Virus record (IMG/VR): IMGVR_UViG_3300035698_014029
Location: 1-64,000 of that record
Source of the DNA: a virus
Strand: one strand, 5' to 3'
Length of the DNA stretch: 64,000 nucleotides
The translations under genes and the position numbers were made by a program. Numbering within the stretch: the stretch's first letter is position 1; every line of letters begins with the position of its first letter. Positions 3,267 to 45,251 of this stretch are shown here, piece after piece. The notes under the pieces were generated by a model, which was not told the origin of the DNA, ran no database searches, and saw nothing but the letters and a program-made list of their open reading frames with translations.

Positions 3267-4865
3267 ATGGGAGCATTTACAAGTAAAGCTACAGGTAATT
3301 GGGATGCAGAAAGTACTACCACGTGGAATGAAGCAGGGCATCCTATAGCAGGAGATACTGTAACAGTTCAAAATGGGCACACTATTACATTGAATAGTGC
3401 TACAGCTTGTTCAACGCTTACTATTGATACAGGAGGTGTTTTAACTGATGCTACAAATAATCAAGGATTGACAATTTCAGGATTGACAGAGGTAGCAGGA
3501 ACATTAACTTGTGGAACTGCTGCTATGAGCTTTGGTAGTGGAGTGATTACAACAACATATTCGATTATTCTTAATAACGGAGGAGTATTTGTTGGTGGGT
3601 CTGGAACGCATACGGCAGGTTCGTTTTGCGGTGGAACTGGTAGTAATGTTACATATACCTCTGGTGTAATGACCCTAGATGGCGAGAACACTTCTGCTGG
3701 TGCTGTACAAATCCTATCTAATTCAATGACGTTTGACGATGGAAATGGTACTATAACATGTACCTACACAGGCGACGATACCATTTTCGATATGGGCGGA
3801 GAAACACACTATAACCTGATAATTAATGCAGCGGCTACCATTTACACATTGAGAGATTCTGGAACGTTTGCTAATAATTTGACGATTACTGCGGGAACAT
3901 TTGATACTGGGATTGATAATTTAACAGTAACAGGATTAACAAATGTATCAGGAACACTTATTTGTAATGCTTCAATTTGTAGTTTTGGTAGTGGTGTTAC
4001 TAATAATTTTGCTTTAACAGTAATTGGTACATTTATAGGGGGAAGTGGTACACATACAATGGGTTCGTTTTTCTTAGATAATGGAACTGCAACATTTACA
4101 TCTGGTGTTACAACATTAAATTCACGACAATTATCAAGTGTAGCGTTTGGTTCAGAGAATGGAACTTTTAATCATGGAAGCGGTACAATAACATTTACAA
4201 TGGCTAATTATCAGCTTATATATGATTTGACAAATACTGCAAAAACTTTTTATAATTTAATTATTAATAAAGCATCTAATCTTGTACAGTTTTCAAATAA
4301 TAGTGGTTATACGTTAACTGTAGCAAATGATTTTACAATTACTTCAGGAGAATTTGATACCTCTGAAAGAACAGGAGGAACAAGTAGGGATTTAATAGTA
4401 ACAGGAAATTTATCAAATACTGGAACGTTTACCCCTAATGCTTCATTAGTAACATTAAATGGTACAGCACAAAGCTTAACTGGTAGTTGGACATTTTGGA
4501 GTTTCACTAAAGCAATAACTGTTACAGATAAACTTACATTTGACAATACAGCAACATATACTTTTGGTGGAAATGTTACATTAAATGGGACAGCAGGAAA
4601 TATATTATCTCTTGCATCAGACAGTACAGGAGTTGCTTTTGATTTTATAATGAGTGCAGGAGCAGTAAAAACTAATTTAGATTATTTAGCTGTTAAAGAT
4701 TCAGATGCAAGTAGTTCAGATGTAGGTCATAAACCAATAGCACCTACTAATTCAACAGATGTAAGCGGTAATACAGATTGGTTTGGAGCAGCACCAACAC
4801 CACCAACATCTACAACAGGAAAAGGTGGATTTAGAGCAAAAAGAATAATAATAAGTGGAATTTAA
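3267..4865 (+). CDS. Beta-helix adhesin-like virion protein (tail fibre candidate)
   Basis: 532 residues made of short Thr, Gly and Asn rich beta repeats, the pattern of right-handed beta-helix surface proteins. The N-terminus (GNWDAESTTTWNE... GDTVTVQNGHTITL) matches the way bacterial and phage beta-helix adhesins with a G8-like cap begin. A larger unit recurs: SFGSGVITTTYSI... GGSGTHTAGSF near residues 90-120, and SFGSGVTNNFAL... GGSGTHTMGSF near 235-270. No signal peptide. Probably a receptor-binding or fibre component displayed on the particle. The C-terminus is basic (KGGFRAKRIIISGI). GC content falls through this gene towards the genome average. Confidence 0.6.
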   Translation: MGAFTSKATGNWDAESTTTWNEAGHPIAGDTVTVQNGHTITLNSATACSTLTIDTGGVLTDATNNQGLTISGLTEVAGTLTCGTAAMSFGSGVITTTYSIILNNGGVFVGGSGTHTAGSFCGGTGSNVTYTSGVMTLDGENTSAGAVQILSNSMTFDDGNGTITCTYTGDDTIFDMGGETHYNLIINAAATIYTLRDSGTFANNLTITAGTFDTGIDNLTVTGLTNVSGTLICNASICSFGSGVTNNFALTVIGTFIGGSGTHTMGSFFLDNGTATFTSGVTTLNSRQLSSVAFGSENGTFNHGSGTITFTMANYQLIYDLTNTAKTFYNLIINKASNLVQFSNNSGYTLTVANDFTITSGEFDTSERTGGTSRDLIVTGNLSNTGTFTPNASLVTLNGTAQSLTGSWTFWSFTKAITVTDKLTFDNTATYTFGGNVTLNGTAGNILSLASDSTGVAFDFIMSAGAVKTNLDYLAVKDSDASSSDVGHKPIAPTNSTDVSGNTDWFGAAPTPPTSTTGKGGFRAKRIIISGI

Positions 4866-43502: not shown

Positions 43503-45251
43503 ATGATAAAATTTAAAAATGTAGTAAGTTTATTTGATGGACATAGTGGAGGAAGGATTGCATTAGATATTCAAGGTATAAAATATGAGAATTATTATTC
43601 TAGTGAAATAGATAAATATGCAATACAGGCTTCTGATGCTGTTTTCCCAGATAATATAAAACTTGGGAATGTTATTAAATTACGAAGATATTTAGAAAAG
43701 CCATATTTATTTGAAAGAATGTATAATTGTTCTTTTGTAAAAAAAGAGAATAAACAATTAATATTACATTGTACTGATTTATTATTAGACGGAGTAGATT
43801 TATTAATGGGAGGTTCTCCTTGTACTGGATTTTCATTTGCAGGTAAACAATTAAATTTTAATGATTCGCAAAGTAAATTGTTTTTTGAATTTATTAAAAT
43901 AAAAAATATTTTAAACCCTAGGCTTTTTCTTCTTGAAAATGTAAGGATGAAAAAGGAATATTATGAAGCTATTTCTAAATACGTAGGAGTTGAAGCAATA
44001 AAAGATGAAAAAGGTAAACCTTATATTAATTCTGCTTTAGTAAGTGCTCAAAACAGGATGAGATCGTATTGGACTAATATTGAGGGAGTTAAACAGCCAG
44101 AAGATAGAGGTATTTTATTAAAAGATATTTTAGAAGATGAAAATTCTATAGATGAAAAATATTACATAAAAGGAGTTAAGTTTGATAAATTCTTAAGTGA
44201 ATTAAAAGGGAGATATCTTAAGTTAAATAAAAAAGGTAATTTAAAGCAGAATCAAGATAAGGCTTCTACTTTAACTGGGGGAGGTCATTCAGGGGGCAAT
44301 CATTCAGATATGGATATTCTTCTTGTTGATTACTCACATCAAAATGAAGGGTTGCGTTTTTATGAAGGGAAAGCCCCTACTTTAAATGCTAGAGACTATA
44401 AAGAGCCTAGATGTATTTGTGTAGCACAAAGAGGTCGAAATATAGTTGATGGGAAAAGAAAGGATTATAATGGAGCCCCAACTGAACAACGATTAGAGCC
44501 AAATCTTGACGGCAAAACAAACTGCTTAACTACCGTAGGTAAAGATAATTTAGTATTAATATCTAATTCTAAAAAAAATACAATTACAGATAAATCTATA
44601 TATTATGAAAAGGATACAAGAACCCTTACGATATTGCAAGAATTGCAAGAAATTATTAGAGAGGAAAAGAATGGGGAATGGGCGGTGGCAATCTATGCAC
44701 GATTTTTTAAGGATGACCTACTGTTCAAAAGAATGTATGAAAGTTTCATTTTCAAAGAACAAAAAGGATGTAGTTACAGAGAGGACGAGCAGAGAGAGGG
44801 CACAAAAAATGATAAAGCCGTCTCTATGTGTGAAATGCAAAGTGAAGAATGGACTGGACGTCCATCATATAGATATGAATCCTCTAAACAATTCATTAAA
44901 CAACTTGCAGAGGTTATGTCGGAGCTGTCACTTGAAGATTCACAGACCGAAAAAAATATGTACCGTTTGTGGAAAACCACAAAAAGGGTTAGGTTATTGC
45001 GAAAAGCATTATCAACGATTCAAGAAATATGGAGACCCATTAAAATTGAAACAGAAGAAATCAACATAGATAAAAATAGTTATAAACTAAGAAGGTTAAC
45101 AGTAAGAGAATGTGGTCGTTTACAGACCATTCCTGAACCTATTTTAGATAAAATTTTAGCAAGTGGAGTATCAAATAGTCAACTTTACAAAATATTTGGA
45201 AATGGTTGGAATGTAGAAACAATAGCTCATATATTTAGTTTTATAAAATAA
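43503..45251 (+). CDS. DNA cytosine-5 methyltransferase with nested HNH insertion
   Basis: 582-codon frame. C5-methyltransferase motifs: I FDGHSGGRIALDIQG (11-25), IV GGSPCTGFSFAGKQ with catalytic Cys107, VI LLENV (about 144-147), VIII QNRMRSYWT, IX RRLTVRECGRLQTIPE, and the ending IFGNGWNVETIAHIF. Between TTVGKDNLVL and NSYKLRRLTV, residues about 368-522 are an out-of-frame reading of an HNH endonuclease gene, yet contain no stop. Without them, the enzyme would be about 430 residues, normal for the family. Likely protects phage DNA from host restriction. Whether the long form is active is unknown. Confidence 0.85.
   Translation: MIKFKNVVSLFDGHSGGRIALDIQGIKYENYYSSEIDKYAIQASDAVFPDNIKLGNVIKLRRYLEKPYLFERMYNCSFVKKENKQLILHCTDLLLDGVDLLMGGSPCTGFSFAGKQLNFNDSQSKLFFEFIKIKNILNPRLFLLENVRMKKEYYEAISKYVGVEAIKDEKGKPYINSALVSAQNRMRSYWTNIEGVKQPEDRGILLKDILEDENSIDEKYYIKGVKFDKFLSELKGRYLKLNKKGNLKQNQDKASTLTGGGHSGGNHSDMDILLVDYSHQNEGLRFYEGKAPTLNARDYKEPRCICVAQRGRNIVDGKRKDYNGAPTEQRLEPNLDGKTNCLTTVGKDNLVLISNSKKNTITDKSIYYEKDTRTLTILQELQEIIREEKNGEWAVAIYARFFKDDLLFKRMYESFIFKEQKGCSYREDEQREGTKNDKAVSMCEMQSEEWTGRPSYRYESSKQFIKQLAEVMSELSLEDSQTEKNMYRLWKTTKRVRLLRKALSTIQEIWRPIKIETEEINIDKNSYKLRRLTVRECGRLQTIPEPILDKILASGVSNSQLYKIFGNGWNVETIAHIFSFIK
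44605..45069 (+). CDS. HNH homing endonuclease nested out of frame in methyltransferase
   Basis: 154 residues in the +1 frame of the methyltransferase. Real protein features: three zinc-binding sets (C11, C14, C40, C44; C75, C78, C105, C108; C119, C122, C132, H135) and an HNH core LDVHHIDMNPLNNSLNNLQR (H87, H88) then LCRSCHLKIH. Start ATG 44605, stop at 45069. GC content is visibly higher than in the methyltransferase around it. Such genes cut DNA at uninserted sites and copy themselves. The full length lies within the methyltransferase frame, which stays open across it. Confidence 0.85.
   Translation: MKRIQEPLRYCKNCKKLLERKRMGNGRWQSMHDFLRMTYCSKECMKVSFSKNKKDVVTERTSRERAQKMIKPSLCVKCKVKNGLDVHHIDMNPLNNSLNNLQRLCRSCHLKIHRPKKICTVCGKPQKGLGYCEKHYQRFKKYGDPLKLKQKKST

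Follow-up and report, generated by a model that had tools for sequence, protein, structure and literature searches.

A probable selfish HNH gene nested out of frame in C5-cytosine methyltransferase genes of diverse phages

The stretch of viral DNA considered here, positions 1 to 64,000 of the IMG/VR record IMGVR_UViG_3300035698_014029 (73.5 kb in full), carries a C5-cytosine DNA methyltransferase gene that holds a complete HNH endonuclease gene in another frame. These 64,000 nucleotides are referred to as the window. How can a second gene lie inside a conserved one and leave its reading frame open from end to end? The answer favoured here, at a probability of about 85%, is that a selfish HNH homing gene is carried as an out-of-frame passenger in a phage C5 methyltransferase gene, just upstream of motif IX. 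The features concerned are the following.

43503..45251, plus strand: open reading frame (ORF) of the C5-cytosine DNA methyltransferase, 582 aa, without an internal stop and uninterrupted across the nested gene
43503..44552, plus strand: methyltransferase part 5' of the insert, with motifs I-VIII and the target-recognition region, from alignment with the uninserted relative L001
43821-43823, plus strand: codon of the catalytic Cys107 of the methyltransferase
about 44553..45077, plus strand: inserted cassette of about 525 nt, present in the window and absent in L001
44605..45069, plus strand: hidden gene for a 154-aa HNH endonuclease, shifted +1 from the methyltransferase frame, ATG start, TAG stop
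45078..45251, plus strand: C-terminal part of the methyltransferase with motifs IX and X, from phrog_17284 and phrog_116 C-terminal matches and the L001 alignment
45090..45101, plus strand: codons for RRLT of motif IX, just 3' of the insertion site

A sequence-only reading of this DNA had described a methyltransferase frame open from 43503 to 45251 and, at 44605-45069, a complete +1-frame HNH protein with three zinc sets. Both descriptions hold, the first as 582 codons with no internal stop and the second by agreement of the ORF, the family matches and the alignments. The 582-aa product matches Pfam DNA_methylase (E=3.2e-29) and phrog_116 of PHROGs, and scores 116 bits against TIGR00675 dcm of NCBIfam, above the cut-off of 100.65. 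The C5 motifs I, IV (PC), VI (ENV, residues 145-147), VIII (QxRxR, here QNRMR at residues 183-187), IX and X are all present and in order, motif IV reading PCT where PCQ is the usual form. The 154-aa protein matches phrog_1271 (E=3.6e-14) and other phage HNH families; its matches to Pfam HNH_3 and HNH (E=3e-4 to 3e-3) lie below the Pfam cut-offs. Its zinc sets (C11/C14/C40/C44, C75/C78/C105/C108 and C119/C122/C132/H135) are invariant or nearly so across homologues (alignments A1/A7), and H87, H88, N100, H109 and H113 are invariant in the homologue alignments. AlphaFold modelled the protein with a mean predicted local distance difference test score (pLDDT) of 87. A Foldseek search with this model gave no significant structural match, the best of HNH type being the Geobacter nicking enzyme 4h9d (probability 0.87, E=0.5). 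The HNH gene is the sole same-strand nested ORF of at least 80 aa in the window.

The double open frame had been thought improbable by chance, and an exact calculation bears this out. HNH codons were drawn from their synonymous sets with phage codon usage, and stops arising in the methyltransferase frame were scored. Given the HNH protein, the probability of a stop-free methyltransferase frame in the window is 1.6e-15; the reciprocal probability, of a stop-free HNH frame given the methyltransferase-frame peptide, is 7e-6. The remaining forward frame of the same stretch contains 17-18 stops. A chance open frame, or an artefact of assembly or annotation, can draw only on the general fact that metagenomic contigs contain errors. 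Against it stand the value for the window alone and the presence of the same arrangement in the isolated, sequenced Staphylococcus phage CUB-EPI_14 and in dozens of independent assemblies. Because of these independent occurrences the explanation is already refuted, and the probability left to it is negligible.

Relatives were sought with the HNH sequence in viral contigs, genome contigs and phage records, the queries being blind to gene context. One extra search, with the spacer peptide that the methyltransferase frame encodes across the insert, added L095 and L105; the other homologues were found by HNH sequence. All of the 43 non-redundant homologues obtained are nested in the same phase, and the frame at -1 relative to the HNH is open throughout. 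Around most of them this open frame spans the N-terminal methyltransferase motifs to motifs IX and X. The flanking G+C ranges from 28 to 69% across the 43, and the hosts are phages and prophages of several phyla. They include the cultured phage CUB-EPI_14, in which the locus is annotated as a single methyltransferase gene, and prophage-like loci in assemblies of Virgibacillus, Treponema, Peptococcaceae, Methylococcaceae and Dokdonella. The host of the window phage is likely to belong to Bacteroidota, because its terminase is closest to that of an unannotated human-faeces phage (42%) and then to those of Bacteroides phages (31%). Among close homologues of the window HNH no free-standing copy was found, and plasmid sequences contained no close homologue. 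Distant zinc-repeat relatives (L031, L032 and L079-L085) are free-standing and have many stops in the other frames, and the phiKX1 relative is also free-standing. What had been taken for a one-off double-coding solution is instead a widespread lineage, of an already published kind (PMC11855218). In L105 (2130-3914) a divergent hidden HNH lies in the C-terminal part of an apparently split C5 methyltransferase whose frame is open, and the N-terminal methyltransferase part is encoded upstream in another frame.

Across these relatives the absence of stops is far from neutral expectation. Codon shuffling of 15 homologues predicts about 4.5-19 methyltransferase-frame stops per sequence, yet the frame is open in all 43. 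Stops in this frame inside the inserts of relatives, which would have counted against the proposal, were looked for and not found; the one stop seen, in L059 and L065, lies downstream and is taken up below. Under the codon model the product of the stop-free probabilities across the 42 homologues with a clear ATG is about 1e-248, a figure that covers related sequences and is not a number of independent events, with HNH identities of about 45-60% that leave synonymous sites near saturation. These codon statistics demonstrate that purifying selection has kept stops out of the methyltransferase frame across the insert.

The borders of the insert were located by alignment with L001, an empty homologue of 59% overall identity. 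The cassette falls between ...GKTNCLTTVGKDNLV and YKLRRLTVRECGRLQ, that is KDNL(V) / YKLRRLT, at about 44553-45077 and directly 5' of motif IX, which agrees with the earlier placement of the stretch between the target-recognition side and motif IX. These borders are good to a few codons only, the best empty relatives having about 59-75% protein identity outside the insert. A near-identical phage pair differing in the insert alone was sought and not found, the best empty relatives being still divergent. Insertion sites identical to that of the window were obtained from L004 compared with L088, and from L037, L035 and L013 compared with L135 and L136; nearly all of the 43 homologues are inserted just before motif IX. 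Empty-site relatives are also available for CUB-EPI_14 (IME-SA4 and SpP) and for L037 (Roseobacter phage CRP-821 and Pseudanabaena phage Pan4). The HNH genes of 27 of the 42 loci end within the codons for RRLT in motif IX, which in the +1 frame read E-D-stop; the window HNH has its own TAG, 20 nt before that position.

The cassette also appears to have moved relative to its host gene. Trees of 25 HNH proteins and of the N-terminal parts of their methyltransferases reject each other in the approximately unbiased (AU) test (p=3e-54 and 5e-16). In addition, a cassette about 97% identical, beginning about 45 nt 5' of the ATG and extending through motif IX, is shared by L035 and L037 in divergent methyltransferases; identity is about 40-75% in most blocks upstream and drops to about 80% on the downstream side. 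This cassette looks like a transferred unit with a co-converted 3' flank. Because the trees conflict and one nearly identical cassette sits in two divergent methyltransferases, the HNH cassette is, on comparative grounds, mobile relative to the host gene. The insert had been described as more GC-rich than its flanks, and the G+C of the HNH ORF is indeed 0.366, compared with 0.290 upstream and 0.276 downstream; this is not by itself proof of recent arrival. In a regression over 42 loci, the G+C of the insert rises with that of its flanks (slope 0.70, r=0.93), with a tendency in AT-rich hosts for the insert to be the GC-richer part. The regression rules out the high G+C of the insert as an argument for recent transfer.

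A mobile HNH gene next to a conserved motif recalls introns and inteins, since group I introns typically carry HNH genes, and sites beside a conserved motif are typical of both elements. If the insert were an intron or intein carrying the HNH gene, the open methyltransferase frame would be incidental. The searches gave this explanation little to build on: with E values up to 1 allowed, this region of the window matched no group I or II intron or other Rfam family, except for a single spurious long non-coding RNA hit below threshold, and cmscan gave no Rfam match at the gathering score in five relatives. A Pfam scan of the full protein and of the insert detected no Hint or intein family, and the in-frame peptide is without a Pfam match. 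The HNH gene, from ATG to stop, fills almost all of the insert and leaves about 60 nt for a ribozyme. An open frame in all 43 relatives, at the combined probability given above, is not something introns need. An intron or intein is therefore considered very improbable.

The earlier proposal of a homing gene that spares its host through two open frames, in place of an intron or intein, is thus supported by the open frames of all 43 homologues, the tree conflict, the L035/L037 cassette and the lack of an intron match; for homing, this support comes from sequence comparison. The out-of-frame passenger would work as follows. One mRNA would be read in two frames. Ribosomes starting at the methyltransferase ATG would read through the insert as a spacer of about 175 residues, which would split the methyltransferase between the target-recognition region and motif IX, and ribosomes starting at the internal ATG would make the HNH protein. 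Splicing would be unnecessary because the methyltransferase frame is kept stop-free. In a mixed infection the HNH protein would probably cut or nick uninserted methyltransferase genes at or near the motif-IX coding sequence, after which recombinational repair would transfer the cassette, together with sequence beside it, to the allele that was cut. Retained methylation is likewise a prediction of this scheme. The AlphaFold model of the methyltransferase has pLDDT values of 71-96 in the core (residues 1-230), 84-95 from residue 531 and below 50 in the spacer; the modelled core matches C5 methyltransferase structures, and an intact C5 fold is predicted.

Could the spacer itself be of use to the methyltransferase, for example as an added target-recognition module, so that both frames are selected for their products? 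The sequence-only reading saw no resemblance of this stretch to the methyltransferase family, and in fact the in-frame insert peptide matches no known Pfam family. The peptides of different phages resemble one another (alignment A2), and parts of the spacer are helical in the model. The peptides are more similar than codon shuffles predict (z=20.6), and the third-frame control gives z=14.5; in divergent pairs only, the excess is z=4.5 for the methyltransferase frame against 2.2 for the third frame. The second and third positions of methyltransferase codons serve as first and second positions of HNH codons, an overlap that forces most of the similarity. At sites free to vary, conservative replacements are not consistently commoner than in the control frame, the modelled spacer has the low pLDDT noted above, and L018, L073 and L078, with truncated HNH remnants or deletions, have shorter spacers in a methyltransferase frame that is still open. 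A functional domain had been considered on the strength of the peptide conservation (z of about 20), and was rejected since the third-frame control ascribes most of it to shared ancestry and HNH constraint. Because the third frame shares the excess and the free sites show none, the absence of stops looks like what selection keeps, and the spacer sequence looks tolerated rather than functional. A functional spacer is thus regarded as improbable, if less so than an intron or intein.

Translation of the hidden gene was examined through its start sites. Shine-Dalgarno matches of at least 5 nt precede 15 of 42 hidden starts, compared with 27 of 355 control ATGs, which were out-of-frame ATGs within the same genes (p=2.6e-6). 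Examples are AGGAGG in L004, TAAGGAGGT in L095 and AAGGAG in L014. Ribosome-binding sites are thus present at hidden starts in relatives of the window gene.

Several observations weigh against the passenger reading or parts of it. The hidden ATG of the window is without a Shine-Dalgarno site, as are the methyltransferase and helicase starts there. Hosts of Bacteroides phages are known to start translation without Shine-Dalgarno sites. Given these other starts, and a terminase near those of Bacteroides phages, the missing site is not decisive. Cleavage and homing are proposed from traces in sequences, namely the common site, the cassette transfer and the tree conflict, and that conflict could come from methyltransferase domains recombining among themselves. 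The spacer has pLDDT below 50 in the full-methyltransferase models, and retained activity is a prediction. L059 and L065 carry an in-frame TAG in motif IX just 3' of the insert (RRLTPL*LECC, near 4106-4130), and the N-terminal half of the methyltransferase is split or disrupted in L028 and L029. Some cassette hosts, such as these four, may have lost the methyltransferase. From the TAG and the disrupted N-terminal halves it follows that the cassette can outlive an intact methyltransferase.

Such damaged host genes also favour the view that the insertion inactivated the methyltransferase, the open frame being a leftover or having no use beyond translational coupling, whereby ribosomes stay on the mRNA to the benefit of the HNH gene; expression of an internal gene could be helped by ribosomes passing through its region. 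Set against this, the methyltransferase motifs are intact on both sides of the insert in the window and in most relatives, selection against stops acts on the insert, and the downstream motifs IX and X are in frame and conserved. Inactivation is therefore judged unlikely, and it is the least unlikely of the alternatives weighed here. In L028 (2418-3134) and L029 (1689-2276), further genes for HNH- or AP2-like endonucleases break into or adjoin the 5' portion of the methyltransferase genes that bear the hidden HNH. Motif IX has three-codon insertions just 3' of the cassette in L006 (4294) and L025 (638). The motif IX changes in L059, L065, L006 and L025 are possibly repair scars or cleavage-resistant alleles.

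A second hidden family was also observed in C5 methyltransferases. In L008 (2676-3284), L012 (2523-3128) and L107-L117, a gene for a helix-turn-helix and HNH protein is nested just after motif VIII, in the other alternative frame, with the opposite shift from the window HNH. Both hidden genes occur within one methyltransferase gene in L008/L010 and in L012. Homologues of the second family with at least 54% identity over full length (L107-L117 and L012) are all nested, the methyltransferase frame being open and the third frame having 17-25 stops. L118-L128, which match more distantly or in part, mostly have stops in both other frames. The hidden ATG is preceded by a AGAAGAAGGAGG-type sequence built of motif VIII arginine codons. 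In L008, L112 and L117 these codons, AGA AGA AGG AGG, are Shine-Dalgarno-like and lie about 8 nt before the hidden ATG, and the ribosome-binding site of this family thus seems to come from the host gene. Separately, a further conserved ORF lies in another frame over the N-terminal methyltransferase half in L073 (2481-3128), L074 (2544-3011) and L078 (2868-3380), and also in L008 and L012; it begins with MNQLTFFAEE or MDQLTFLSEA and ends with ILETGDVPQRYFLSPKACAGILRRAEKRGK-LPP. In L074 (2213-5017) the C5 methyltransferase frame continues into a Dam-like adenine methyltransferase domain, an apparent two-domain fusion with a hidden HNH.

The nearest known system is the ShiLan domain, an out-of-frame "hidden" HNH in a mycobacteriophage DNA methylase, first described in PMC9957025 and treated by Arsenault, Gosselin and Gogarten 2025 (PMC11855218). 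Both systems have a zinc-flanked HNH gene in another frame of a phage methyltransferase whose own frame stays open, with no intron or intein, and the ShiLan HNH, too, has its stop codon at the very end of the insert. The distribution of ShiLan is patchy, which suggests homing, and that of the window lineage is likewise disjunct with respect to the host gene. The host of ShiLan, gp65, is a DPPY amino-methylase (sequence L024), whereas that of the window HNH is a C5 methyltransferase. The ShiLan HNH uses the third (+2) frame, a GTG start and no detectable ribosome-binding site, in contrast to the +1 frame and ATG of the window HNH. It is reported only from mycobacteriophages, whereas the window lineage lies before C5 motif IX in phages and prophages of several phyla. 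The two HNH proteins are remotely alike over the zinc-HNH-zinc layout (hhalign probability 81%), and BLASTP gave scattered fragments with no useful match (E=0.024). By these comparisons the window lineage is distinct from ShiLan in the class of its methyltransferase, its insertion site, its frame and its range of hosts, and probably in HNH family as well. The second independent case described in PMC11855218, Pacc40 gp60, is again a phage methylase with an endonuclease-like ORF out of frame, and phages Sashimi and Tiff81 have free-standing relatives. It differs in its helicase-methylase host and its AP2/HNH-like 160-aa product, a distinction that follows its description and not its sequence. 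Literature searches for further hidden HNH genes returned the mycobacteriophage cases only.

To the published kind, the present analysis adds breadth across phyla, quantified open-frame selection, ribosome-binding sites, cassette borders and a second family in the same host-gene class. A mycobacteriophage curiosity becomes a widespread pattern with a measurable selective signature, seen in 43 hidden genes whose host frame is always open. The many hidden starts with ordinary ribosome-binding sites bear on how hidden genes get translated, a question left open by the first report. Such genes tend to escape genome annotation, as in CUB-EPI_14 with its methyltransferase label alone, and are a natural source of long overlapping genes. 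The odds lean modestly towards out-of-frame nesting being a general, repeatedly invented HNH lifestyle, distinct from introns and inteins. It would comprise at least three lineages (that of the window, the helix-turn-helix HNH after motif VIII, and ShiLan), two of which would use host motif codons as signals, RRLT as a stop and the motif VIII arginines as a Shine-Dalgarno sequence. If so, host-codon signals would explain the exact insertion positions and the one fixed frame relation per site. Free-standing phage HNH homing endonucleases (PHROG 1271, 144 and others) share the HNH core and zinc knuckles with the hidden proteins, but their genes are not nested in others, and the alternative frames contain many stops. 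HNH endonucleases of I-HmuI-type group I introns, and inteins, share the presumed homing logic and a nuclease gene near a conserved host motif. They differ in being removed from RNA or protein, whereas the window insert, in which no splicing element was found, would be translated through. Alongside introns and inteins, nesting out of frame would give selfish genes a third means of residing in a conserved gene without destroying it.
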